NCBI GenBank assembly: GCA_019358895.1
Contig: JAHHIG010000007.1
Span: 124,001 to 188,000 of the forward strand
Source of the DNA: Tildeniella nuda ZEHNDER 1965/U140
Lineage (GTDB): Bacteria > Cyanobacteriota > Cyanobacteriia > Leptolyngbyales > Leptolyngbyaceae
DNA length: 64,000 nt
Direction: 5' to 3'
The translations under genes and the position numbers were made by a program. Below the pieces are notes generated by a model. It worked only from the letters and a program-made list of their open reading frames with translations, had not been told where the DNA came from and searched no databases. Positions 1 to 14,192 of this stretch are shown here, piece by piece (position 1 is the stretch's first letter; each line of letters begins with the position of its first letter).

Positions 1-1109
1 CTCAGCACCACACCGTCAAACTTTAAAGCTGATGGAACGGATTGACCCTGAAGCGAGAGAGCAACCCAGCGACCAGACTTGGTTCTCCACCAGCACTCGA
101 TCGCTGGCTGGTTAGCCTGAACGCCACTGAGCCATAGCTGCAACACGAGTTCAAACTCGTTGAAGTGGTTGGGGTGAAGGAGTTCTGTCACATGCCGACC
201 CCGCAACTCTTCTTCTCCATAGCCTAAAAGACGCTCGACAGCAGTACTGATGTAAACAATTTGTCCCGTATGACTGGTTTGAATAAAGAGGTAGGGGCTG
301 TTTAAGACAAAGGCTTTCCACTTTTCTTCTGTTCTGACTAGCGCATTGTAGACCTTCCGGCTCTCCGTTATGTCTTCCAGTGACACCGCAAAACAACACT
401 GGTGACGATCGGTGCAGTCATCCAATCTCGTCAAGGAAACACGAAGATTCATCCAAATAATGTCATTATCTTTAGCGATAAAGCGCTTTTCAACGGTGTA
501 AGAGTCGATCGCTCCATCCAGTAGTTGTTGCTTCAAGTCTGCATCAATCAAGCGATCATCTGGACACACCAAGTCTTCTAAGCAAAGGCTTTCGTGCTTT
601 GTTGTGTTGAGAAGTTCATGTAGGCGTTGATTACAGCGCATAATGACTCCTGCCTGATTAATCAGAGCAGTTGCCAGACTGGGGTGAAAGAGGGTAAACG
701 ATCGCTCGTATGCCTCTATAAGCGGTTGATCCACAGGCTGATGCAGCTTGTCATCTGACTTTATTGCTTGAGCCGTTAAGAAAACTGCATTTGCCTCTGC
801 ATTAAATTTTAGGGAACATTCCAGGCTCTTTCCGTCGTCTCTAGTTTTAGCAACGAAATTAACTGCTTTCCCCTGCAAAGCAAGCCCCCACAGATTTTCT
901 AGCAAAGCTTGCGAGGTTGACTTCGATCGGAAACAGGTAAAAAAATCAACCGCTTCTGTAACCGTTTGCAGTAGTTCTAAAAAGCGTTGACTGGCATAAA
1001 GGGTTTCCCCGCGATCGTTATACACACAGATTGGACCCAGCGATCGTTCCAGAAACTCCAATGATCCGTGAGAGCGTATCCCAGGAACATCCCAAAAAGT
1101 AGAAACCAT
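1..1109 (-). CDS. PAS-domain sensor protein, N-terminal part (cut by window edge)
   Basis: The frame is open from the ATG at 1109 to the left edge, 369 codons with no stop, so the C-terminus lies outside. The last third reads like a canonical PAS/PAC unit: a core with YISTAVERLLGYGEEELRG, then a segment of the form WWRTKSGRWVALSLQG. An upstream segment (about residues 160-265) carries PAC features such as FIAKDNDIIWMNLRVS and a DITE-like linker (EDITESRK). The first 150 residues are another, more divergent sensor-like region. Proteins of this build usually end in a histidine kinase or GGDEF output, which cannot be seen here. No membrane segment is evident, so it is probably cytosolic. It diverges from the kinase at 2145 across a 1 kb gap. 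Confidence 0.8.
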   Translation of the reverse strand, partial: MVSTFWDVPGIRSHGSLEFLERSLGPICVYNDRGETLYASQRFLELLQTVTEAVDFFTCFRSKSTSQALLENLWGLALQGKAVNFVAKTRDDGKSLECSLKFNAEANAVFLTAQAIKSDDKLHQPVDQPLIEAYERSFTLFHPSLATALINQAGVIMRCNQRLHELLNTTKHESLCLEDLVCPDDRLIDADLKQQLLDGAIDSYTVEKRFIAKDNDIIWMNLRVSLTRLDDCTDRHQCCFAVSLEDITESRKVYNALVRTEEKWKAFVLNSPYLFIQTSHTGQIVYISTAVERLLGYGEEELRGRHVTELLHPNHFNEFELVLQLWLSGVQANQPAIECWWRTKSGRWVALSLQGQSVPSALKFDGVVL

Positions 1110-2144: not shown

Positions 2145-4070
2145 ATGATTGGGCAATTACTGACGGGACGCTATCTCATTCTAGAAAAGCTGGGAGCAGG
2201 CGGGTTTAGCGAAACCTATCTGGCTCGTGATAAATACCTTCCCCATCACCCGCTGTGTGTGGTTAAATCACTTCAACTATCGGTTAATAGCACTATTTCA
2301 CTAGAAGCCGCGCAGCAGTTGTTTGAGACCGAAGCAAAGCTTTTGGAAGGGTTAGGGCAACACCACACGCAAATTCCGACATTACTGGCTTATAGTCATG
2401 AACATGATCAAGCTTACTTAATTCAGGAATATGTTGAAGGCGAGAGCTTACGCAAGTGGCTCACCCGCAATCAGCGTTTGACCAGTGCGGCAGCCATCAA
2501 ATTGTTGTCAGAAATGCTATCGATTCTGACGTATCTTCACTCTCGTCGCATCGTCCATTGCGATCTTAAACCCAGCAACATTATTCGTCGTAAGCGAGAT
2601 GGCAAGCTGGTTCTGATTGACTTTGGGGCAGCCTGTCAGTTACCAGAAGCAGCCTCTAATACTGAATCTGGTAGCAATGACCTTGCGATGGCGATCGGGA
2701 CTCCAGACTACATGCCAGATGAGCAAAAATTAGGATGTGCCCAGTTGAATAGTGACCTTTATGCGCTAGGCATCTTGGTCGTTCACCTGTTGACGGGTGT
2801 GCATCCACGCGAGTTCAAACGCGATCTGATTTCGGGGCAATTGGACTGGCAGCGTCATCTGACGGATCAAGCCATCGAACCCAGCTTGATTGCTGTTCTC
2901 AATCGCATGGTGCAAAGCAATTTTCGCGATCGCTACCAGCAAGCAACAGAGGTGCTAGCAGACCTTCAGACATTACCCATCAACCGTTTTCGGCAGCGTG
3001 GCTCTGGTTGGCAAGGAGCGCTACCAAAACTCGTTGTGCCAGCAGTAGCAGGGATACTGTTGGGTGTTCTTGGCATCCAGTACGTTCGTGCCCAGGGTCA
3101 ACAGACTGTCTCCCTGCTCAGCCAGCTACAGCAGCGCTTTCACCCATCCGATGTGAACTTAACGATGGTGCGTGATGTGTCGATGCAGTCTGGAGTCGAT
3201 CGCATGGTGATTACGCCTAACAATCGCACTCTTGTGACAGCAGGGTCAGATCATGTCCTTCGCTTATGGTCGTTGACGACTGGAGCGATGCTCAAAACGC
3301 TGTCTGGGCATCGCGCTACTGTTACAGCCTTAAACGTTAGCCAAAACAGCAAGCTACTGGTGAGCGGTGGTGAAGATGGTACGGTTTATTTGTGGGATAC
3401 CGACACAGGTCGGTTACTGAGGGCGTTTGAAGGACATCGGCAGCCAGTCACAGCCGTTGCTATTAGTCCTGATGGCAGCACAATAGCGAGTGCTTGTAAA
3501 GAAGGCAGAATTCGTCGCTGGGATGTGCAAACTGGCATCCGTATGCAAAGCCTGAAGCTTTCTCATGGGGGGGTAACGGCACTGGCATATGGAGCGACCC
3601 CGGATCGCCTGATCAGTGCTAGCAATGATAGCGATCGCGCTGATGACTCAATGCGTCAGATTCAAATCTGGAATCTCAGCATCGGCAAGCTCGAACGTAC
3701 CTTTGCCGGACATACAGCCCCAATCGTGGGTTTGCAGGTAGCAGACGATCACATGCTTTTTAGCGTTGGCAAAGACCGGGGGCTAATGTGGGATCTCAAG
3801 CGCGAAGAGTTAGTCACTGTGTTTCCTCAAGACTCGGCGAACGCGATCGCCACTTCGTTTAACGAGCAAAACATCGTTACCGTTCATACCAACGGTAGCA
3901 TTCGCGTATGGATGCGTCAGGCAGGACAGTTAGTGCAAAGAAAGTCAGGCGCATTAGGGCGCGATTTAGATGTCGTGCTTAGCCCCAATCATCGCTATTT
4001 GGTGAGCTGGAGCGCCGATCGACGGTTGCGTGTCTGGCAGCTCAATGTGAGTGACATTCACTCAAAATAG
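2145..4070 (+). CDS. Ser/Thr protein kinase with C-terminal WD40 repeats
   Basis: A 641-residue eukaryotic-type kinase. The kinase domain spans about residues 9-275: glycine loop LGAGGFSETY at 16-25, invariant Lys41, catalytic loop HCDLKPSN with Asp140 and Asn145, metal-binding DFG at 159-161 and a GTPDYMPDE activation segment. The loop has Cys where HRD kinases have Arg, a change that is common in the bacterial DLKPSNI class. One membrane helix follows (about 296-315). About six WD40 blades (about 350-638), with recurring LWD/IWN/VW ends and GH starts, are then predicted outside the cytoplasm if the kinase is inside. The kinase phosphorylates Ser/Thr; the WD40 part probably binds proteins. 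It is followed on the same strand by a polyferredoxin and an FHA reductase, suggesting a shared redox-signalling job. Confidence 0.93.
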   Translation: MIGQLLTGRYLILEKLGAGGFSETYLARDKYLPHHPLCVVKSLQLSVNSTISLEAAQQLFETEAKLLEGLGQHHTQIPTLLAYSHEHDQAYLIQEYVEGESLRKWLTRNQRLTSAAAIKLLSEMLSILTYLHSRRIVHCDLKPSNIIRRKRDGKLVLIDFGAACQLPEAASNTESGSNDLAMAIGTPDYMPDEQKLGCAQLNSDLYALGILVVHLLTGVHPREFKRDLISGQLDWQRHLTDQAIEPSLIAVLNRMVQSNFRDRYQQATEVLADLQTLPINRFRQRGSGWQGALPKLVVPAVAGILLGVLGIQYVRAQGQQTVSLLSQLQQRFHPSDVNLTMVRDVSMQSGVDRMVITPNNRTLVTAGSDHVLRLWSLTTGAMLKTLSGHRATVTALNVSQNSKLLVSGGEDGTVYLWDTDTGRLLRAFEGHRQPVTAVAISPDGSTIASACKEGRIRRWDVQTGIRMQSLKLSHGGVTALAYGATPDRLISASNDSDRADDSMRQIQIWNLSIGKLERTFAGHTAPIVGLQVADDHMLFSVGKDRGLMWDLKREELVTVFPQDSANAIATSFNEQNIVTVHTNGSIRVWMRQAGQLVQRKSGALGRDLDVVLSPNHRYLVSWSADRRLRVWQLNVSDIHSK

Positions 4071-4174
4071 AGTGCATACGTTAGTAAGCCACATGCTAGA
4101 AAGCCTACGGTGATTGAATGCTAGCGCTTCATGGCTCCATCCCAAACTGACTATTCCAACACAAGGTAAGCCTT

Positions 4175-5905
4175 ATGCTGCATAACGTTTCCGAAACTAC
4201 CATGCACCGTGTCCGTTGGCTCATTACCCTCGGCTGGCTGCTCTTAATTGCTTCATTTTTCTATGATCCCATCACGCCGATGTTTACGGCTCCCGATGCC
4301 GTGTGGAGTCCATTCCATCTCCGTCCAGAAATCTATTTAGACCCAGAACGATGTGTCAAGATTCGAGATGTTTGTGTACCCGAAAAGCCCTTTTCGATGA
4401 GTGCCATCATGTGGTGGGCAATGATTGTGCCCGCTGGCATTTTCATTCTGTTGGTGTTTGGGCATGAGTTTTGGCGACGCATTTGTCCGCTCTCATTTAT
4501 GTCACAGATTCCTCGTGCTCTGGGGCTACAGCGCAAGCGGAAAGTAGTCGATCCAGTCACTGGGGAGACCCGTTGGGAGGTGGTTGTGATTGGCGAAAAA
4601 TCCTGGTTGGGACGCAATCATCTCTACGTGCAGTTTGGACTCTTTGTCGTGGGACTGACGCTCCGTATTCTCTATGTCAATTCCGATCGCATTGCGCTGG
4701 GCAGTTTCCTCATCTTCAGCATTCTTTGCTCCATGTTGGTTGGCATTCTCTATGCTGGAAAGAGTTGGTGTCAATACTTTTGCCCGATGGCGATCGTGCA
4801 AACAGTGTATACAGGACCGCGATCGCTCCTGGGCAGTCAGAATTATCTACAACCAAAAGCAGCGGTCACTCAATCCATGTGCCGCATGGTTGATCCAAAA
4901 ACGGGCAAAGAACAGAGTGCCTGTGTCAGTTGCAAAGCACCCTGCATTGACATTGATGCCGAAAAAACGTACTGGGCAGAATTAAATAAACCCGGTCGTC
5001 GGTTAGTGCAATATGGCTATCTGGGCATGGTGATTGCCTTCTACCTCTACTATTACCTCTACGCAGGTAATTGGGATTATTACTTTTCAGGTGCCTGGAC
5101 TCACGAAGAAGATCAGATTGCCAAAGTGATGGATTCAGGTTTTTATATCTATGGATACACCATTCCGATTCCCAAAGCAGCGGCAGTGCTCATCACCTAT
5201 GCTGTACTGGTTATCATCACCTTCACGATCGGTGTCATTGTTGAAAAACTCTGCCGTAGACTGACGATGCGCGGTCGTCCCATTTCAGCGGAACAGGCTC
5301 AGCACATTGCGTTTACGCTGTTTTCCATCACCTCGTTCTGGACGTTTTTCTCCTATGGGGCACGTCCTTCCTTGAACCGCCTGCCCTACTGGCCCCTGCT
5401 AGCATTCAACGCGCTGATTGTTCTAGTGGGTGCACTGTGGCTCTATCGCACCATCAAACGCACCCATGCTCAGTATGAACGTGAGCATATGGCAGTGAGC
5501 CTACGAAAGCAGTTGCAAAAGCTTGAGCTTGATCCGGAGTTATTGGAAGGGCGATCGATTGATGAATTGACTCCAGACGAAATCTATACACTTGTGAAAG
5601 TATTGCAGGGGTTCTCTCAACAGTTACGGCTACACACCTACACTGGGGTCGTGCTGGACTTATTGCAACAACAAGCAACGGATACATCCAGCAGCTTTGC
5701 GTTCTGCCAGAAACTCCGGCAAGACCTGAAACTGAAAGATGCCGATCATTTTGCGGCTCTTGAGGCGATCGCCGTTACCCATCCACAAATTTTCAGCGCG
5801 TCCGGCGCACGTCCAGTTTCTGCCCCCCTTCACGATGAAGATACACTGGCAAAAACGATCGCGAGACCGCTTAGACCAGCAACCCCTAACCCCATCGATC
5901 GCTGA
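4175..5905 (+). CDS. NapH/NosR-like membrane 4Fe-4S polyferredoxin
   Basis: A 576-residue membrane protein with about eight predicted helices (for example residues 15-30, 78-96, 150-169, 175-194, 276-298, 314-337, 355-373, 382-404) and a soluble tail of about 140 residues. Cysteines suit iron-sulphur binding: C104-P, C199-x3-C203-P, and C236 with C250-x2-C253-x3-C257, in loops as in the NapH/NosR/RdxA family of quinol- or ferredoxin-linked electron carriers. Two further cysteines, C60 and C67, lie in an early loop probably on the other face. The C-terminal tail is helical, with no recognised domain. It sits 104 bp after the WD40 kinase and about 170 bp before an FHA/flavin reductase/2Fe-2S fusion, its probable electron donor. 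The acceptor is unknown. An alternative start is the ATG at 4202. Confidence 0.85.
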   Translation: MLHNVSETTMHRVRWLITLGWLLLIASFFYDPITPMFTAPDAVWSPFHLRPEIYLDPERCVKIRDVCVPEKPFSMSAIMWWAMIVPAGIFILLVFGHEFWRRICPLSFMSQIPRALGLQRKRKVVDPVTGETRWEVVVIGEKSWLGRNHLYVQFGLFVVGLTLRILYVNSDRIALGSFLIFSILCSMLVGILYAGKSWCQYFCPMAIVQTVYTGPRSLLGSQNYLQPKAAVTQSMCRMVDPKTGKEQSACVSCKAPCIDIDAEKTYWAELNKPGRRLVQYGYLGMVIAFYLYYYLYAGNWDYYFSGAWTHEEDQIAKVMDSGFYIYGYTIPIPKAAAVLITYAVLVIITFTIGVIVEKLCRRLTMRGRPISAEQAQHIAFTLFSITSFWTFFSYGARPSLNRLPYWPLLAFNALIVLVGALWLYRTIKRTHAQYEREHMAVSLRKQLQKLELDPELLEGRSIDELTPDEIYTLVKVLQGFSQQLRLHTYTGVVLDLLQQQATDTSSSFAFCQKLRQDLKLKDADHFAALEAIAVTHPQIFSASGARPVSAPLHDEDTLAKTIARPLRPATPNPIDR

Positions 5906-6073
5906 AACTTCTAAGAAACAAACGACGACATTTTGCCTGTTTGCTTGAGGAGTGCAAAGCCTTGCGCCCCTACAGTGGGTAAAACCGTTCTTAGAAAACG
6001 CCTTGGAAATACCATACTCCAAGCCTGCGATCGCATCAATCCATACACCTTGTACCAGGGAATTCACACGCCT

Positions 6074-7633
6074 ATGTTGACCTTAAAGTCAATTAATTTT
6101 GAGCAGCAGCAGTTTCAAATTCATCACCTAAAGCAGACGCAGCCTGACAAGATGGAATGGTTGCTTGGACGTAGCACCGCCTGTGATTTGGTGCTGCCCA
6201 ATCCAGAGGTGAGCCGCGTACATGGAAAAATTGCCTATGTTGATGATGCCTACTACTTTATGGATATGGGCAGTAGCTTTGGGTCATCGCTCAACGGCAC
6301 CAGCGTTCCTGCAAATGAAAAGTATCAACTTAGCCTTGCCGATATTCTGCAATTGGGAGAAACCTTTCTCTATGTTGAAGGCATCACTGCCCCTTCCATC
6401 CCTCCGTCTGCTAATGAGGCAGAAACGTATACATCCGTTTCGCTGCCAGAGCAGCCGTGGGCAGGCGAAGATCTGCTGTGTCGGTGCTGTCGCATTATAG
6501 ACGAAACGCCTGATGTCAAGACCTTTAGCTTCATTGCAGAGCCGCCTGTACTGTTTACCTACAAACCTGGACAATTTGTGAATCTGGCGATCGACATTGA
6601 TGGCAAGCCTGTCGTTCGCTCTTATTCCATCTCATCGTCACCAACCCGTCCTTATCATCTCAGCCTGACGATCAAGCGTGTAGCCTCACCGCCCGACCAG
6701 CCAGATATCCCCTCTGGTCTGGTTTCTAACTGGATGCACAACCACCTTAAAGTCGGCGATCGTGTTCAGTTGATTGGCGGACCATTGGGACACTTCACCT
6801 GCTTACCCAACTTGCCCTCCAAGCTGATGCTCATTTCGGCTGGCAGCGGCATCACACCGATGATGTCTATGTCTCGGTGGGTGCAAGATACACTTGCCGA
6901 CTGTGATATCGTCTTTCTTCACTGCGCTCGCACACCAGACGACCTCATCTTTCGGACCGAATTAGAAACCATTGCTGCTCAATTACCCAACTTCCATCTG
7001 GCTGTTACCCTCACTCAGCAGCCGTTAGGACAGTCTTGGATGGGCTTAACCGGGCGAATTTCCAGCTCACTGTTGCAGATGGTTGCCCCAGATCTGCTCG
7101 AGCGATCGGTGTATGTTTGTGGTCCAGAAGGTTTTATGGAAAGCACTAAACTCCTGCTGGAAACCATGAAATTTCCCATGCAGAACTACCAGTCAGAAAG
7201 CTTTGGTCGCACCAAGAAGCCAAAGCCATCCTCCCAGGCGACACCTTCTGCGACCTGGCATCCGCAACCAGAGACCATCATGGCTCATAACGGCAATGGG
7301 CATCATGATGGTATAGCAACCAAGTCTGCCTCTACCCAGCTTGCTGCCCCTCCGACATCCGCTCAAGCGTCTCCTGTCGTTCACTTTATGAAAGCCGAGC
7401 GGCAGATACCCGTAGATGATAGTGCGTCCATTCTAGAATTAGCAGAGCAAGAAGGCATTCCAATCCGCTCGGCTTGCCGCGTTGGTGCGTGTGGTGCATG
7501 CAAAATTCGTGTCCATAAAGGACAGGTTCGTTACGACACACCACCCACAGCGTTGACAGACACAGATAAACAAGCAGGCTATGCTTTGGCGTGTGTCGCC
7601 TACCCAAACGGATCTCTGGCGATCGAAGCGTAG
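6074..7633 (+). CDS. FHA domain - flavin reductase - 2Fe-2S ferredoxin fusion
   Basis: The ATG at 6074 (519 residues) is chosen because the FHA fold begins directly after it; the frame is open upstream to an ATG at 5933, but that 47-residue extension is not domain-like. Residues about 27-100 are an FHA domain: GRSTACDLVL, then SRVHGKI, then the glycine-rich loop before the last strands. FHA domains bind phosphothreonine. Next comes an FNR-type module: RSYSIS for FAD, GSGITPMMS for the pyridine nucleotide and the end motif CGPEGFM. A low-complexity linker of about 60 residues leads to a plant-type [2Fe-2S] domain with C468-x4-C473-x2-C476 and C507. It should move electrons from NAD(P)H through FAD to 2Fe-2S, as in Hcr or class IA reductases. 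The FHA fusion is unusual and suggests docking to a phosphorylated partner. Confidence 0.92.
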   Translation: MLTLKSINFEQQQFQIHHLKQTQPDKMEWLLGRSTACDLVLPNPEVSRVHGKIAYVDDAYYFMDMGSSFGSSLNGTSVPANEKYQLSLADILQLGETFLYVEGITAPSIPPSANEAETYTSVSLPEQPWAGEDLLCRCCRIIDETPDVKTFSFIAEPPVLFTYKPGQFVNLAIDIDGKPVVRSYSISSSPTRPYHLSLTIKRVASPPDQPDIPSGLVSNWMHNHLKVGDRVQLIGGPLGHFTCLPNLPSKLMLISAGSGITPMMSMSRWVQDTLADCDIVFLHCARTPDDLIFRTELETIAAQLPNFHLAVTLTQQPLGQSWMGLTGRISSSLLQMVAPDLLERSVYVCGPEGFMESTKLLLETMKFPMQNYQSESFGRTKKPKPSSQATPSATWHPQPETIMAHNGNGHHDGIATKSASTQLAAPPTSAQASPVVHFMKAERQIPVDDSASILELAEQEGIPIRSACRVGACGACKIRVHKGQVRYDTPPTALTDTDKQAGYALACVAYPNGSLAIEA

Positions 7634-7648
7634 GAGTGGTTCAGCATG

Positions 7649-7690
7649 CAGCGATCAGCATTCAGCGATCAGCACTCAGCGATCAGCTAT
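7649..7690. repeat. three tandem 14-bp units
   Basis: The unit CAGCGATCAGCAYT occurs three times in a row with one or two changes per copy, directly after the reductase gene. It belongs to the GATCAGC/GACCGCT repeat vocabulary seen at several other gaps in this window. Confidence 0.8.
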
Positions 7691-7708
7691 GAATACAAGC
7701 TTGCCTCC

Positions 7709-7866
7709 TGCCTCTTCGCGGAAGTGAGGTGTGAGGTGTGAGGTGTGAGGAGTATTGGCTTCTGCCTTCTGCCTCTTCGCGGAAGTGAGGTGTGAGGTGT
7801 GAGGTGTCTTAGCTTCTGCCCCCTGCCCCCCTGCCTCCTGCCCCCTGCCCCCCTGCCCCCTGCCTC
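7709..7866. repeat. GAGGTGT and TGCCCCC low-complexity repeats
   Basis: Two copies of a block with CTGCCTCTTCGCGGAAG followed by repeated GTGAGGT heptamers lie here. They are followed by a pyrimidine-rich run of CTGCCCCC-type units. The same block recurs at about 57660-57765. The gap 7634-8025 holds no gene. Confidence 0.8.
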
Positions 7867-7976
7867 CTTACCCTGACCGCCAAAAGCGATCTACTGGCAG
7901 TGCCTGAGTCTCGTTACTGAGTGACACATGTATCGCGTTTGACCACACGTCTCCCAATTGCACAAGTGAGGAATGC

Positions 7977-8025: not shown

Positions 8026-9912
8026 GTGAAAATTCTCTTAATAGAGGATGATGAGTCAGTCATTGCTCTACTCTTAGATGTACTCACGACACAACACTAT
8101 ACCGTCGATGTCGCAACAGATGGGCAAATTGGGCTGGAACTGGCAGTCACCTGGGATTATGAGCTAATCCTATTAGATCTGCTGATTCCCAAACTGGATG
8201 GAATTCATCTTTGCTGCAAACTGCGTACTCAAGGCTTCCAAAAACCAATTCTTTTGTTAACGGCAAAAGGCTCCAGTGCTGATGTTGTCAAAGGCTTGGA
8301 TGCGGGTGCCGATGATTATGTGACCAAACCATTCGCTTTAGTGGAGTTGCTGGCACGAGTGCGGGCATTGCTCCGTCGGCGAACAACGAGCCTAGCACCG
8401 CCTGTGTTGGTGTGGGAGAAGCTGCGGATGAATGTCGCGTCTGTAGAGGTCACCTATGCCGAAAAACCCCTCTCTCTGACACCCAAAGAATATGGTTTGC
8501 TGGGGCTGTTTTTACGCAATCCACAGCGGGCGTTTAGTCGCAGTGATATTCTCGATCGCCTCTGGTCGATCGATGCCTCACCCAGTGAAGGTACGGTTAC
8601 CAATCTCATCAAAGATTTGCGGCAAAAGCTCAAAGCGGCTGGGATGACGGCAGACTTACTGGAAACAGTCTACGGTCTAGGCTATCGGCTGAAACCACCA
8701 CCAAAACAGGATTGTGAGCAGGATGCCAGCGACTCAACGGCTCTCCCAGCGTCCGCTGTAGCACTGTTGACTCCCAAAAAAATAGCCTCAGTTAACAAGG
8801 TGCTGGAGCGCTATCAGCAAACCTTTGCTGCACGGGTGAGTGTGCTAGAGCAACTCGAAGCGTCGCTGCGACAGCAAAACGTTAGTCCTGCTTTATGCCA
8901 GGAGGCGGCACACGAAGCGCATAAATTGGCAGGCACGCTAGGCTCGTTTGGCTATGGCAAAGGCTCCGAGTTGGCAGGAGCGATCGAACAGTTGCTTCAG
9001 CCAAACACGCTAGAGCCGTCCGTAATCCCCTCACTTTCAGCCCTGATCGCGGCTCTTAAACAAACACTCACACGACCGCCAACGCCTCTTCTGGTTGAAC
9101 CCGTTGAGTCTGAACTTGTTGAACCCAACGCTACTCGCCTTGTATTGGTCATTGATGATGCGGCGATCGTGTCTCAAGCATGGCAGGCTGGTGTTGCCTG
9201 GGGGTTTCAAGTAGAGGTTGTGGCACTACAAACGGCACAACAGCGACTCAACGACGTTGCTCCAGATGCCATCCTGCTGAGTCTTAGTACAGAGACCGTA
9301 GACCAAACACTGACGCTTTTGCAAACCATCAAGGCGCAGATGCCGATCGTGCCCGTTTTAGTCATGACTGAACACGATCGCTTGATCGATCGCGTCATCG
9401 TTTCTCGGTTCGGTGTGCGGCGCTTTTTGCCGACCTCGATCGGTGTACCTCAAATTTTTGAGGCGTTAGCCCAAATGTTGTCTAGCGCTCCCACAGCAGA
9501 CGCGAACATCATGTTGGTGGATGATGATTCGATCGTCCTTGAGAGCTTGCGAAGTCACCTGCAACCTTGGGGACTGCACGTGACTAGCCTGCAAGATCCA
9601 GGTCAATTTTGGGATGTACTGACCGCTACCAAGCCTGATTTGTTGGTGATGGATCTCGAAATGCCCACATTCAGTGGGATCGACCTTTGTCGGGTAGTGC
9701 GTCAGGATTTACGCTGGGGAAATTTACCCATTCTAGTAGTGACTGCCCACACCGATATGGCATCCATTCAACAAGTTTTTGCGGCGGGTGCTGATGATTT
9801 CATCGGGAAGCCAGTAGTGGGTCCAGAGCTAGTGACGCGGGTGATCAGTCGTATCGAGCGATCGCGCTTGCAACACGAACTGGAGACAATGAAGCGGAGG
9901 CTAGGTACATGA
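8026..9912 (+). CDS. multi-domain response regulator: REC - winged helix - Hpt - pseudo-REC - REC
   Basis: A 628-residue regulator starting at GTG. REC1 (1-115) has acidic EDD at 7-9 and phospho-acceptor Asp51. An OmpR-type winged helix (about 128-225, ending ETVYGLGYRL) binds DNA. An Hpt-like segment (about 255-345) carries HEAHKLAG, with His299 as the likely phosphorylated residue. A second receiver-like domain (about 368-485) has Ser419 where Asp should be, so it is a pseudo-receiver. REC3 (about 500-618) is intact with Asp543. One chain therefore holds two working receivers, a phosphotransfer domain and a DNA-binding output, enough for an internal phosphorelay. The stop overlaps the start of the histidine kinase by 4 bp (ATGA), so the two are translationally coupled. 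Confidence 0.92.
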   Translation: MKILLIEDDESVIALLLDVLTTQHYTVDVATDGQIGLELAVTWDYELILLDLLIPKLDGIHLCCKLRTQGFQKPILLLTAKGSSADVVKGLDAGADDYVTKPFALVELLARVRALLRRRTTSLAPPVLVWEKLRMNVASVEVTYAEKPLSLTPKEYGLLGLFLRNPQRAFSRSDILDRLWSIDASPSEGTVTNLIKDLRQKLKAAGMTADLLETVYGLGYRLKPPPKQDCEQDASDSTALPASAVALLTPKKIASVNKVLERYQQTFAARVSVLEQLEASLRQQNVSPALCQEAAHEAHKLAGTLGSFGYGKGSELAGAIEQLLQPNTLEPSVIPSLSALIAALKQTLTRPPTPLLVEPVESELVEPNATRLVLVIDDAAIVSQAWQAGVAWGFQVEVVALQTAQQRLNDVAPDAILLSLSTETVDQTLTLLQTIKAQMPIVPVLVMTEHDRLIDRVIVSRFGVRRFLPTSIGVPQIFEALAQMLSSAPTADANIMLVDDDSIVLESLRSHLQPWGLHVTSLQDPGQFWDVLTATKPDLLVMDLEMPTFSGIDLCRVVRQDLRWGNLPILVVTAHTDMASIQQVFAAGADDFIGKPVVGPELVTRVISRIERSRLQHELETMKRRLGT

Positions 9913-12900
9913 CTTTAACCTGGCTCTCGTCTAAACACACGGTACGCGACAAAAAGCGCTACCAGCAGACAGCGATTCCCCTGCGGCTTGTGCTTGTTGT
10001 GCCGTTTGTTCTCCTCACAGTGGGAACTGTCGGGCTGGTGCAGTATCTCTCTCTTCGCAATCAGCAGCAGTCTGTTCAACAGCTTGCCCAGCAGTTAATG
10101 GGTGAGGTGAGCGATCGCGTTAACCTGTACCTCAGCCATTATCTGGAAACACCGCAGCAGGTCAACCGCTTGAATGCCAGCGCCATCCGCTTAGGTGAGA
10201 TCGATCGCACCGACCCCAAACGCCTGGAGCGCCATTTTTTGCAGCAGATTCAGGAGTTTGACGCACTCAGCCGCATCCATTTCAGCAATCCTCAGGGTGG
10301 CTATCTGTCGGTTGGCAATGATCAGCGTGGTCTCACTGTCGCAGCCACCGATCGGTTTGTCAGCGGTAAGCTGCGTGTGCATAGCGTGGATCAAACTGGT
10401 AGGCGAACTCACTTGCTGGTCGAGCGGCAACAGTATGATGCCCGCGATCGCCCCTTTTTTCAACGCGCGGTGGTGGTGGGTCAGCCGACCTGGACACCTG
10501 TTTATGTCTATCTTCCTGCTTCTTTGGGGCTAGGTATTGCCGCCAGCTACCCTCTCTACAATCAGGCACATCAGCTTGAAGGGGTTTTAGCCAGCGATCT
10601 GACGCTTGTGGCGCTCAATCAATACCTGAAGAACCTTAAAATCGGTGCTCATGGAACGGTGTTTATCATCGAACGATCGGGACTCCTGATCGCCTCTTCA
10701 ACGCCGGAAACACCCTTTTTTACCCGTGTCGATCGCACGCAACCTCACCGTCTTCCTGCCATTGAGAGTAAAGAACCACTGATTCGTCTCACAGCGCAGC
10801 ATTTAGTCTCTCAATTTGGTGCGTTTACCAAGATTGATACGACCAGGCAACTTCACTTCAAGGCGGCAAACAAACGGCAGTTTCTCCAGGTCACGCCATT
10901 TCGCGATCGCTTCGGTCTGGATTGGCTGGTCGTAGTGACGGTGCCAGAGTCGGACTTTACTGGATTCAGTGATGCCAATACGCAGACAGCCATCCTGCTG
11001 AGTGCGGGTGCATTGTTCGGTGCGATCGCCCTGGGTCTGCTCACCGCCCAGTGGATTGTCCAACCCATCCAACGGCTCAGTCGTGCCAGTCGTGCGTTGG
11101 CGCAAGGTGAATGGAATGAAACGCTCAAGGAAGACAGCGCGATCGCCGAGCTACAAGAGTTAACGCGCTCCTTCGACCAGACTGCCGAACAATTACAACG
11201 CTCCTTTGATCACGTTAGAGCTGCCCTACAAGCCTCAGAAGAACGCTTCACCAAAGTATTTCGTGTTAGCCCCGATCCAATTGCGATCGCCACTCCAGAG
11301 GGGCGGTACCTTGAAATCAATGATGCATTCACCAGCCTATTTGGTTACGCAAGAGAGGCGGTTCTCGGTCGTACTGTGGCAGAGGTGGGTCTATGGCTCA
11401 ATTCAGATGAACAAGAACGATCGGTAGAGCAAATTTTAGCGGGTGAAGGCGTTCACAACCTGGAATGTACGTTTCGGAGTCATGCGGGTGAGTTGCTGAC
11501 CGTGCTGTTTTCAGCCGAAAGCATTGAGATTCAGGGACAGCGTTGCATCATTGCCATGGCTAAAGAGATTACCGATCGTAAACAAGTTGAAGCCGCATTG
11601 CGTCAGAGTGAAGCCGCACTCCGCCGTGCCCAGCAGGTTGCCCATGTTGGCAGTTGGAACCTTGATCTAATCACAGGACAAGTAACCTGGTCAGAAGAAA
11701 GCTTCCACATCTTTGGTTGGGATATCACGCAGCCAGAGCCAACGCTCTCTCAATTTATGGCACTGCTGCATCCTGACGATCGTGACGTGTTGCAGCAATG
11801 CGTGACGCAGGCTATGACGACTGGAAGCTCCTACAGCGTAGATTTTCGCGCCATACAGCCAGATGGATCAATCCGCTATGTTGAAGCAAAAGGAGAAGCG
11901 ATCGTCAACCCAAACGGGCAGATTACTCAACTGATTGGCACCAATTTAGACATTACAAAGCACAAACAAGCAGAACTCGCCCTCCGTGAGAGCGAAGCCA
12001 CCAAAAATCAAATCTTAAAAGCCATTCCTGATTTGATTGTTTGGATGAAAGCCGATGGTACCTGCATTGATTTGATTGACGGACCTAGTATCACCAATCT
12101 CTATGAGAAGTCAGAAGCGGTTGGCAAAAATCTCTATGAACTTCTGCCCTTTGCATTGGCACAGGCAAGGATGAATGCCATTCAACAAGCGCTAACCACG
12201 GGTGATGTGACTGTTTATGAACATCAGGTGCAAGTGCAGGGAGAAACCAAACATGAAGAAGTCCGAGTAGTCAGCGTTGGCGGCGATCGCATCTTAGTGA
12301 TTGTCAGAGATATCACCACTCGTAAACGAGCAGAAGATGCTCTGCGACAATACGAGCGCATTGTTGCTGCCACCACAGATGGTATTTCACTGATTGACAA
12401 AGATTACACGTATCAAGTGATTAATCCGTCCTATCTCACCCGCTTTGATAAACAGCGCGATGAAATCATCGGGCACTCCGTCGCCGATCTCGTTGGTCAG
12501 CCTAGCTTTGAAGCGGTCATTAAAGAGCGTCTCGATCATTGCTTTGCCGGACAGACCGTGCAGTACGAAGCCTGGTTTGAGTATCCGACGATGGGTTCGC
12601 AATTTATGAGCGTTACCTACGATCCATACATTGAAGCCAATCAAACGATTTCTGGTGCCGTGGTGACAGTACGCAACCTCACTGAACTGAAACGGGCAGA
12701 AACAGCGTTGCGTGACAGTGAAGCGCGCTTTCGCAGTGCCTTCCATGATGCTCCGATCGGCATGGCGCTCATTAGCATGGACGATCGCTGGCTCAAAGTA
12801 AACCCCATGCTCTGTGGCATGCTGGGCTATGTCGAGGTGGAGTTACTCGCTCTGCCAGCGTCTGCTCTCGTGCATCCCGAAGACATAAAGCTGCTGCAAC

Positions 12901-13766
12901 AGGGTGTGGAGCAAGCGCTGTCGCAGCAGCGCAATGCCACCCAAACCGCCCTCCGCTATCAGTGTAAGGGTGGACGGACGGCTTGGGGACGACTGAGCCT
13001 ATCGCTTGTGCGCGATGCTCAAAACCAGCCGCTGTATTACGTGGCGCAAATTCAGGATGTCACAGAGCAGCAGGCAGTTGACCAGATGAAGAATGAATTC
13101 ATTGCCATTGTTAGTCACGAGCTACGGACACCGCTAACCGCTATCAAAGGCTTTCTGGGGTTGCTGCACACGGGCATCTACGCTGATAAGCCCGAAAAAG
13201 CGAAGCGCATGGTGGAACTGGCGCTGTCGAGCAGCGATCGCCTGGTACGGCTTGTGAACGATATTCTGGATTTGGAGCGGCTATCTTCGGGCAAAGTCGA
13301 ACTTGTGATGGAAACGTGTCAGGCAGATGATCTCGTGCAACGGGCTGTCGAAGGTGTGCAGTCGATCGCGGATGAAGCACAGGTCTCGCTGCTGGTTGTA
13401 CCATCATCGGCTCAGGTTTGGGCTGCCCCTGATGCCCTGATTCAAACCCTCACCAACTTGTTGAGCAATGCCATCAAATTCTCTCCAGCCCATGCGACCG
13501 TAACGCTATCCGTGCAAGCTCAGGCTAGTTCTGTGCTCTTTCAAGTGACTGATCAGGGCAGAGGCATTCCCCTAGACAAGCTGAAGACTATTTTTGGGCG
13601 CTTCCAGCAGGTTGATGTTTCTGATGCCCGCCAGCGCGGAGGCACAGGGTTAGGTCTGGCAATTTGCCAAAGTATTGTGCAACAGCACAACGGCAGCATT
13701 TGGGTTGAAAGCGCATTGGGTCAAGGCAGCACCTTCTTTTTCACCGTACCCATACCAGATGATTAG
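9909..13766 (+). CDS. sensor histidine kinase: Cache - HAMP - five PAS - HisKA - HATPase
   Basis: A 1285-residue membrane sensor kinase. Helix 1 is at about 25-46, a periplasmic Cache-type ligand domain at about 50-350, helix 2 at about 357-380 and HAMP at about 382-435. Five PAS/PAC units begin near residues 443, 576, 700, 815 and 941, joined by coiled linkers of the type DITxRKxAExALR. HisKA follows with SHELRTPLT and His1070. The HATPase domain (about 1170-1283) shows NLLSNAIKF, DQGRGIP and GTGLGL. It autophosphorylates His1070 and should pass phosphate to the coupled regulator that overlaps its start and/or to the REC protein at 13818. No receiver domain is attached. The ligand is unknown; Cache domains commonly bind small metabolites. 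Confidence 0.93.
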   Translation: MTLTWLSSKHTVRDKKRYQQTAIPLRLVLVVPFVLLTVGTVGLVQYLSLRNQQQSVQQLAQQLMGEVSDRVNLYLSHYLETPQQVNRLNASAIRLGEIDRTDPKRLERHFLQQIQEFDALSRIHFSNPQGGYLSVGNDQRGLTVAATDRFVSGKLRVHSVDQTGRRTHLLVERQQYDARDRPFFQRAVVVGQPTWTPVYVYLPASLGLGIAASYPLYNQAHQLEGVLASDLTLVALNQYLKNLKIGAHGTVFIIERSGLLIASSTPETPFFTRVDRTQPHRLPAIESKEPLIRLTAQHLVSQFGAFTKIDTTRQLHFKAANKRQFLQVTPFRDRFGLDWLVVVTVPESDFTGFSDANTQTAILLSAGALFGAIALGLLTAQWIVQPIQRLSRASRALAQGEWNETLKEDSAIAELQELTRSFDQTAEQLQRSFDHVRAALQASEERFTKVFRVSPDPIAIATPEGRYLEINDAFTSLFGYAREAVLGRTVAEVGLWLNSDEQERSVEQILAGEGVHNLECTFRSHAGELLTVLFSAESIEIQGQRCIIAMAKEITDRKQVEAALRQSEAALRRAQQVAHVGSWNLDLITGQVTWSEESFHIFGWDITQPEPTLSQFMALLHPDDRDVLQQCVTQAMTTGSSYSVDFRAIQPDGSIRYVEAKGEAIVNPNGQITQLIGTNLDITKHKQAELALRESEATKNQILKAIPDLIVWMKADGTCIDLIDGPSITNLYEKSEAVGKNLYELLPFALAQARMNAIQQALTTGDVTVYEHQVQVQGETKHEEVRVVSVGGDRILVIVRDITTRKRAEDALRQYERIVAATTDGISLIDKDYTYQVINPSYLTRFDKQRDEIIGHSVADLVGQPSFEAVIKERLDHCFAGQTVQYEAWFEYPTMGSQFMSVTYDPYIEANQTISGAVVTVRNLTELKRAETALRDSEARFRSAFHDAPIGMALISMDDRWLKVNPMLCGMLGYVEVELLALPASALVHPEDIKLLQQGVEQALSQQRNATQTALRYQCKGGRTAWGRLSLSLVRDAQNQPLYYVAQIQDVTEQQAVDQMKNEFIAIVSHELRTPLTAIKGFLGLLHTGIYADKPEKAKRMVELALSSSDRLVRLVNDILDLERLSSGKVELVMETCQADDLVQRAVEGVQSIADEAQVSLLVVPSSAQVWAAPDALIQTLTNLLSNAIKFSPAHATVTLSVQAQASSVLFQVTDQGRGIPLDKLKTIFGRFQQVDVSDARQRGGTGLGLAICQSIVQQHNGSIWVESALGQGSTFFFTVPIPDD

Positions 13767-13817
13767 CTTCCAGGTTTGGCTGTCTCTGTGACTTTGACTG
13801 CTTTGATAACAGGCACT

Positions 13818-14192
13818 ATGAACAAACGTATTCTGGTTGTTGATGATGAAGAAGCGTTGCGGGAGCTTGCCGTTACGTGCCTGGAAGATCTGGGTGTTTG
13901 GGCGGTAATCACCGCTGAGTCTGGGTCTGAAGGACTGAATAAAGCTGAAGCAAACAACGTGGATGCGATTCTGCTGGATGTTTCCATGCCTGTGATGGAT
14001 GGGTTTGCGGTCTATGAAACGCTGAAAAGCAATGTCATGCTGCAACATATTCCGATCGTCTTATTGACTGCTAAAGTGCTGCCAAGCGATCGTACTCGTT
14101 TCGCCCAAATGGAGATTGCTGGCGTGATTACAAAACCGTTCGACCCCATGCGTCTCTGCGTTCAACTAGCAACCCTGTTGGGCTGGGATTGA
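13818..14192 (+). CDS. single-domain response regulator (REC only)
   Basis: A 124-residue receiver: VVDDEE near the N-terminus, AILLDVSMPVMDG around the phospho-acceptor Asp, LLTAK, then the KPF Lys. The ATG at 13818 is preferred over the open-frame TTG at 13776, because the receiver fold begins there. It has no output domain, so it acts through protein contacts or as a phosphate shuttle. It follows the histidine kinase by 51 bp and is its likely partner. It resembles the REC protein at 15536 in length, in the phrase AILLD and in the C-terminal LGW. Confidence 0.9.
   Translation: MNKRILVVDDEEALRELAVTCLEDLGVWAVITAESGSEGLNKAEANNVDAILLDVSMPVMDGFAVYETLKSNVMLQHIPIVLLTAKVLPSDRTRFAQMEIAGVITKPFDPMRLCVQLATLLGWD

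Follow-up and report, generated by a model that had tools for sequence, protein, structure and literature searches.

NosR is defined by an extracytosolic FMN-binding domain, and NapH, NosR and CcoG share two CX3CP motifs. Most Ser/Thr kinases of cyanobacteria have no known target. Here we describe a cluster in the cyanobacterium Tildeniella nuda ZEHNDER 1965/U140 that brings a NapH-like membrane protein together with such a kinase. The stretch analysed, called the window, is 64,000 nucleotides long (assembly GCA_019358895.1, contig JAHHIG010000007.1, positions 124,001 to 188,000); positions below count from its first letter. The three genes encode a WD40 Ser/Thr kinase, a predicted membrane iron-sulfur protein that we call pfd, and a reductase joining an FHA domain to FAD, NAD(P)H and 2Fe-2S domains. 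Their linkage in Cyanobacteria suggests a signal-controlled electron valve.

In the available part of PMC8238504, NapH-like systems are tied to flavinylated proteins, most such NapH-like proteins have an extracytosolic FMN-binding domain, and components of extracytosolic flavinylation are strikingly underrepresented in Cyanobacteria. WD40, FHA and CHASE2 kinases were already known from a survey of cyanobacterial Ser/Thr kinases, whose available text never mentions 'ferredoxin' (PMC2176072). The canonical conserved set of FHA domains is Gly, Arg, Ser, His and Asn, with the Asn contacting the peptide backbone (excerpts of PMC4037201 and PMC5549992). A literature search of titles and abstract openings, with subscription journals mostly outside its scope, found no description of the cluster or of the FHA-FNR-2Fe2S fusion among the matches listed. 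The parts are known; the combination appeared in none of these matches.

The three genes of the window

The kinase-WD40 gene (2145..4070, + strand) encodes 641 amino acids, with Pfam matches to Pkinase and, C-terminally, to the WD40 propeller. Next comes pfd (4175..5905, +), a predicted protein of 576 amino acids and eight transmembrane (TM) segments, assigned to the NapH-like iron-sulfur superfamily. The reductase gene (6074..7633, +) encodes 519 amino acids from the ATG at 6074, inside a frame open from a TTG at 5933. We take the ATG as the probable start because related reductases (loci L168, L169 and L171 of our set) begin MLKLK, MLKIK or MLKLR; translation of the window gene from this ATG opens MLTLK. 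Pfam recognizes FHA, FAD_binding_6, NAD_binding_1 and Fer2 in the reductase. All three frames are intact and run in one direction across 2145-7633, which bears out the description given by a first-pass annotation made from the letters alone. The closest relatives of pfd, among the best 80 of 439, are from Stenomitos frigidus (91%) and a Leptolyngbya metagenome-assembled genome (90%).

Co-occurrence and gene order

For the phylum survey we searched 386 cyanobacterial genomes, the window's phylum alone, for pfd and reductase, calling the reductase present at E<=1e-60. The counts are lower bounds, as scoring stopped at three first-look candidates for each genome listed, and some of the pfd matches are fragments. 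pfd was found in 50 of the 386 genomes and the reductase in 15, all of them within the 50. This nesting is beyond chance (hypergeometric 6e-15, with genome relatedness ignored), and in 10 of the 15 the two genes are adjacent by coordinates.

Gene order was read from the best 80 of 439 confirmed relatives in GTDB genomes, taken with flanks, which with the window make 81 loci; a first set of 40 neighbourhoods has five records in common with these. The reductase lies downstream of pfd on the same strand at 56/56 reductase-bearing loci, within 700 bp at 54. It is absent at 25/81, seven of which have at most 2.5 kb of sequence downstream. A kinase (match above 100 bits) stands at 37/56 loci with a reductase vs 0/25 without. 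In the first set a kinase match occurs near L031 and L033 only, and at none of 32 loci lacking an adjacent reductase. More kinases may be present than counted: L120 and L033 are one record, and a kinase does appear in the longer stretch taken for L033; L137 ends inside a CHASE2-family open reading frame (ORF) and L105 starts inside one of the WD40-kinase family. The L112 genes for pfd and kinase are both broken into two frames, of which one part was kept.

Merging identical cores reduced 121 pfd proteins to 116. In a quick tree of these, the window's clade of 30 members (support 100) has the reductase at 30/30 and a WD40 kinase upstream at 26/30; the kinase-less members L097, L105 and L106 have 218-661 bp upstream before the contig ends. 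In a Nostocales clade pfd carries C-terminal FHA and cyclic-nucleotide-binding (cNMP) modules, and is accompanied by the reductase and, at 11 loci at least, by a kinase downstream. Lack of co-occurrence in related genomes would have refuted the first-pass annotation; instead the order is kept in the window's clade, and a differently built kinase joins the same pair in Nostocales. Kinase, pfd and reductase form a conserved unit. The split by reductase is not perfectly clean, since L149 (no reductase) has a CHASE2-family ORF, without a kinase match, 2.4 kb away, and L146 and L153 (no reductase) have, at distances above 5.7 kb, ORFs that cluster with the WD40-kinase family. Tree-based counts used 110 pfd rows, after dropping six of the 116 that showed no reductase and had 2.5 kb or less downstream. 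A tree test on seven independent pairs placed the kinase with the reductase in 1.7 on average, in the opposite sense in 0.0 and equal in 5.3 (median p 0.5).

Two loci stand apart. L174 (9431-11285) has a 138-aa pfd fragment beside a reductase frame without an FHA match, a possible case of co-decay of the two genes. The contig of L113 bears the label Candidatus Gracilibacteria, but its pfd is of cyanobacterial type (61%), and the contig is probably a misbinned cyanobacterial one.

The predicted membrane iron-sulfur protein

With E<=0.01 as threshold, 37/40 aligned pfd members match Fer4_5 (PF12801), the best of them at 1.3e-7. No Pfam family matches the window pfd at that level, and it joins the Fer4_5/NapH-like superfamily through its aligned members. 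Within that superfamily pfd is distinct from NapH, NosR and CcoG. NapH (TIGR02163) scored 18.5 bits (homologue P0002) and 13.7 bits (P0006) against a cut-off of 213.05, and CcoG (TIGR02745) 12.0 and 12.5 bits in two homologues against 316.7; the window protein matched neither. Neither the window pfd (E<=0.01) nor any of eight homologues (E<=0.1) has a Pfam match to an extracytosolic FMN-binding domain. The earlier label 'NapH/NosR-type' thus stands at superfamily level, and fails for the NapH and CcoG models and for the NosR-type FMN domain.

Seven cysteines (C104, C199, C203, C236, C250, C253 and C257) are invariant in 116/116 pfd relatives, as are E98, W100, R101, R102, D259, D261 and E263. 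The first CX3CP is degenerate, WRRICP in the window (4472..4489, +), with W100, C104 and P105 invariant, so that it reads WX3CP in 116/116. The second, with C199 and C203 (4769..4786, +), is intact in all 116, as is a CX13CX2CX3C cluster motif formed by C236, C250, C253 and C257 (4880..4945, +). Our reading is that the seven would make one complete [4Fe-4S] site and a second needing a non-Cys ligand. 'Polyferredoxin', the name first given to the protein, is generous for seven invariant cysteines.

The AlphaFold2 model of the window pfd has pLDDT 78.7, with eight helices within residues 7-427 that we read as TM; most of the main Cys loop (228-242, 244-259) is below 50. K+R amount to 27.7 per 173 positions on the inside vs 5.0 per 93 outside. 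Under the positive-inside rule this distribution predicts that the C-terminal tail and the Cys motifs are cytoplasmic, and that a further pair, C60/C67 (4352..4375, +), lies in an extracytoplasmic loop; these two are Cys in 107 and 112 of 116 proteins.

The reductase

The FHA domain of the reductase spans 6158..6358 (+; Pfam FHA 2.2e-14), the FAD- and NAD(P)H-binding domains of FNR type 6506..7147 (+; FAD_binding_6 7.5e-12, NAD_binding_1 1.6e-19), and the plant-type 2Fe-2S ferredoxin domain 7397..7606 (+; Fer2 5.5e-16). Residues were counted in 55 of the 56 linked reductases, leaving out L129, which is split over frames. Each of the four Fer2 cysteines is kept in 54/55, the exception (L095) being a frame that reaches the contig end. 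In the FHA domain Gly, Arg and Ser are present in 55/55 and His in 54/55, and three of five reductases encoded far from pfd (L168, L171, L172) keep Arg and Ser by eye. Phospho-reading by this domain is plausible, not established.

The C-terminus of pfd

The tail after the pfd core has 36 residues in the window and 27-51 in its 30-member clade. It is variable outside one motif, DEDTLAKTIAR (T557 and T561; 5834..5866, +), a candidate phosphosite and FHA dock; residues 542-576 are predicted to be disordered (pLDDT<50 in the window model). Thr is kept at T557 in 29/30 and at T561 in 28/30, and the commonest residue at flanking positions 541-552 reaches just 5-13/30. The consensus in unfused pfd tails is TLA[KR]T[IV]A[KR] between unconserved flanks. 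T[ILVM][AGVLI][KR] occurs in 28/30 tails (shuffled mean 1.09, maximum 6/30) and TxA[KR]T[ILV]x[KR] in 22/30 (shuffled mean 0.01, maximum 1). These patterns were picked after viewing related sequences, so the shuffles overstate significance, and more weight belongs to the contrast between motif and flanks. Of the tails beyond this clade, the four from Moorena match (TILR) and that of L162 fails to; by eye the L068 tail (genome G091) has RTILR and L065 nothing fitting. Among short pfds without a reductase the motif is found in 1/5 (L163, TLAK). The first guess of phosphosites in the tail gains support from the conserved Thr motif, whose phosphorylation is putative.

Other pfds end differently. 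The C-terminal modules found, called partly with small purpose-made profiles so that 'none' means none detected, are none, cNMP-binding, FHA+cNMP, FHA, EF-hand and Fer2. Among the 110 proteins the reductase adjoins 37/48 pfds with no module, 23/28 with FHA+cNMP and 1/25 with cNMP only, and 0/5, 0/3 and 0/1 with EF-hand, FHA only and Fer2. FHA domains within pfd keep Arg in 32/34, Ser in 27/34 and Asn in 21/34. In the Fer2 case (L069, 9178-11046) pfd continues at its C-terminus into a plant-type 2Fe-2S ferredoxin domain, and this fusion gives the strongest hint of transfer from 2Fe-2S to pfd. A fusion of pfd with the reductase that would be split in the window, considered because of early frames near 1100 aa at pfd, was rejected: those scanned with Pfam are pfd with FHA and/or cNMP modules, and the reductase is a separate gene. 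Slr0593 of Synechocystis is tabulated as 'cAMP binding membrane protein' in the available part of PMC3516471; as a guess, it may be a cNMP-type pfd.

The kinases

The window kinase has its catalytic residues at K41, D140 and D159. G17, K41, D140 and D159 are kept in 26/26 WD40 cluster kinases and N145 in 23/26, the window included; its sequence has all that an active Hanks-type kinase is expected to have (Gly loop, Lys, catalytic Asp and Asn, DFG Asp). A hydrophobic segment at residues 296-314 (3030-3086, +) separates the kinase and WD40 domains, and in a crude scan 14/26 cluster orthologues have a hydropathy peak of at least 1.6 there. As this putative TM segment is seen in 14/26, a far-side WD40 sensor is possible, not general.

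The Nostocales downstream kinase combines CHASE2 and Pkinase in the one member scanned by Pfam (L144). In a quick kinase-domain tree with 19 own-genome paralogues, the 26 WD40 cluster kinases form one clade (support 100), and 11 CHASE2-type kinases form a separate one (99) that groups with five own-genome paralogues away from the WD40 clade (98). Because the two types fall in separate clades, we infer two separate recruitments of a kinase to the pfd-reductase pair. The window's own genome has 21 kinase-domain matches at E<=1e-20, including the window kinase.

Neighbouring genes

Nitrate-transport genes were counted at 31 reductase-free loci, excluding L032 (broken pfd). At four of these (L053, L060, L066, L067) pfd directly follows nrtD, with gaps of 33-278 bp; three of these pfds are of the cNMP type, and that of L067 has no detected module. 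nrtC is present at 6/31, and L048 and L042 are two more loci near nrt genes. NCBIfam puts 8/10 of the proteins over the cut-off for their nitrate-transporter identity, and two presumed NrtA proteins had no NCBIfam match. In textbook nitrate operons narB occupies the place after nrtD. In six nrt-linked genomes PF00384 molybdopterin oxidoreductase genes, which would include narB, lie either on a different contig or at a distance above 200 kb.

At 13 Nostocales loci (L117, L120-L122, L124-L127, L132-L134, L137, L155) a Cu/Zn superoxide dismutase (SOD) family, one member of which was scanned, lies downstream of the reductase and, where a kinase is seen, before it. A Nostocales DUF928 family (one member scanned) is found upstream of pfd, less than 900 bp from its start at 18 loci and 4.8 kb away at one.

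In the window the reductase is followed by an intergenic stretch (7640-7870) that by eye is repetitive (GCCTCTTCGCGGAAGTGAGGTGTGAGG and similar). In the region after the cluster (8026-14192) comes first a response regulator, in which Pfam matches three receivers and an Hpt domain; by eye, the next genes encode a large protein resembling sensor histidine kinases and then a receiver protein. A PAS-domain ORF family (one member scanned), which includes window 1-1109, is present at 17/81 loci.

Proposed mechanism and alternatives

Gene linkage, domain integrity, invariant cysteines, the Thr motif and modular C-termini are features of the sequences. On them we would build a chain running from NAD(P)H through FAD and 2Fe-2S to membrane iron-sulfur centres, gated by phosphothreonine, to which we give an even chance. 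NAD(P)H would reduce the FAD of the soluble reductase, electrons would move on to its 2Fe-2S domain, and from there to the cytoplasm-facing centre or centres of the 8-TM pfd, which would hand them to a quinone or a far-side acceptor. In the tail motif of pfd, one Thr or both would be phosphorylated by the kinase. The reductase, through its FHA domain, would read the phosphorylated tail, or an autophosphorylated site of the kinase, so that the reductase is brought to its membrane partner or kept off it. In relatives, built-in FHA, cNMP-binding or EF-hand modules would occupy the same C-terminal place. Electron flow and its direction, phosphorylation, docking, the sign of regulation and the acceptor are thus putative steps. 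Candidate destinations of the electrons are a quinone, a far-side acceptor (suggested by the conserved outside Cys pair and the SOD gene) and nitrogen assimilation (suggested by the nrt linkage).

A wider scheme is offered tentatively, as somewhat less probable than the chain itself. It would see a cyanobacterial family of signal-gated membrane electron valves with an iron-sulfur core, an exchangeable cytoplasmic C-terminal input (phosphothreonine/FHA, cyclic nucleotide, or calcium/EF-hand) and, in some clades, an FHA-bearing NAD(P)H reductase. Sensor kinases (WD40-STK and CHASE2-STK, for Ser/Thr kinase) would have been recruited at least twice, and electrons would exit on the far side, which would fit the extracytoplasmic Cys pair and the Nostocales Cu/Zn superoxide dismutase gene.

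Several observations weigh against the phosphothreonine-gated chain. The FHA Asn is present in 3/55 reductases, the window's not among them, and replaced in 52/55. The first-pass annotation would have been refuted by an FHA domain lacking its contact residues across homologues, and here the outcome is mixed, with Gly, Arg, Ser and His kept and Asn lost; by its residues this is not a canonical phosphothreonine reader. The reductases of L169 (8886-10712) and L170 (9328-11208), both far from pfd, have FHA domains without Arg and Ser. There is no kinase at L110 despite 5.6 kb of upstream sequence, nor at the Moorena loci L156-L158 with about 7.9 kb on each side; a kinase as universal part of the cluster was rejected on these four reductase-bearing loci, and about two independent events underlie the link between kinase and reductase. 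No such Thr motif was seen in the printed linkers of Nostocales-type pfds, and one docking scheme does not fit all, because the Nostocales-type pfd has its own FHA. Sequence searches found no relative of pfd in the PDB (one weak match, E 0.48, outside the Cys region). Foldseek, queried with the model of pfd, found nothing at E<=0.001, and a second aligner run on Foldseek's own candidates gave none above Z 5.7, in short pieces only; neither a new fold nor the exclusion of a NapH-like fold follows from these negatives. The phosphorylation-gated chain as first proposed is thus partly supported: the conserved linkage and the Thr motif speak for it, the lost Asn and the non-universal kinase against it, and its phosphorylation, docking and electron flow are putative.

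Some of these facts would be natural if the electron chain were real and the FHA domain a constitutive, phosphate-independent dock, with the kinase acting elsewhere or on expression. The loss of Asn in 52/55, the loci without a kinase and the two unlinked reductases whose FHA lacks Arg and Ser all fit such a dock. Retention of Arg and Ser in every one of the 55 linked reductases does not, nor do the conserved Thr motif of the tail and the attachment of two different kinases to the same pair, and we regard the constitutive dock as unlikely, if the most serious competitor. Less probable again is a different or reversed flow, in which pfd takes electrons from plastoquinol or photosynthetic carriers and supplies the reductase or other cytosolic enzymes, such as those of nitrate assimilation. 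It would account for cNMP-type or truncated pfds directly downstream of nrtD (4/31 reductase-free loci) and for nrtC at 6/31, and the available part of PMC8238504 has some NapH-like proteins elsewhere probably drawing on quinol. The FNR-2Fe2S order is the usual one for NAD(P)H-driven reduction of an acceptor, and the distant PF00384 genes of the six nrt-linked genomes also speak against reversal. We consider it very improbable that the reductase, like GbcB or Hcr, has its partner in an oxygenase or hybrid-cluster protein encoded elsewhere, its linkage to pfd being incidental. Its best NCBIfam matches do point that way, GbcB with 339.5 bits (cut-off 500) and the NADH oxidoreductase PRK10684 with 198.3 bits (cut-off 383), both below cut-off; pfd is nevertheless present in 15/15 reductase genomes, and no oxygenase is among the 12 recurring neighbour families inspected (five scanned).

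Comparison with known systems

We know of no textbook arrangement in bacteria in which a kinase directly controls an NAD(P)H-fed electron-transfer pair. If the phosphothreonine-gated chain is true, one conserved cluster would unite a kinase, an electron-transfer enzyme and a domain resembling phosphothreonine readers. Together with the relatives that carry domains of cyclic-nucleotide and calcium type, it would allow the path by which signalling reaches electron flow to be tested genetically. The pfd tail motif names the exact residues to mutate.

Like NapH, NosR, PceC and CcoG, which are thought to move electrons across or along the membrane, pfd is a multi-TM protein with CX3CP and further Cys motifs, predicted in pfd to face the cytoplasm. 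It differs from them in its WX3CP first motif, in having no FMN-binding domain that we found, in its eight predicted TM segments, in the C-terminal modules of its relatives (HEAT modules among them) and in its NAD(P)H reductase partner. The logic of NADH to FAD to 2Fe-2S to a membrane carrier is also that of Na+-NQR subunit F, and the solved chains nearest to the FNR part of the reductase include NqrF. None of the searches made here showed a relation of pfd to Nqr membrane subunits, and the domain order differs, the 2Fe-2S domain of NqrF being N-terminal.

The reductase shares the order FAD, NAD, C-terminal 2Fe-2S with GbcB, PaaE and Hcr, but has an N-terminal FHA domain and is linked to pfd rather than to an oxygenase or hybrid-cluster protein. 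As in pairs of a Ser/Thr kinase and an FHA protein (GarA and OdhI; Rv1747, in the available part of PMC5549992), where an FHA protein reads the kinase signal, the cluster joins a kinase to an FHA domain; here that domain is fused to an electron-transfer enzyme and mostly lacks the canonical Asn.

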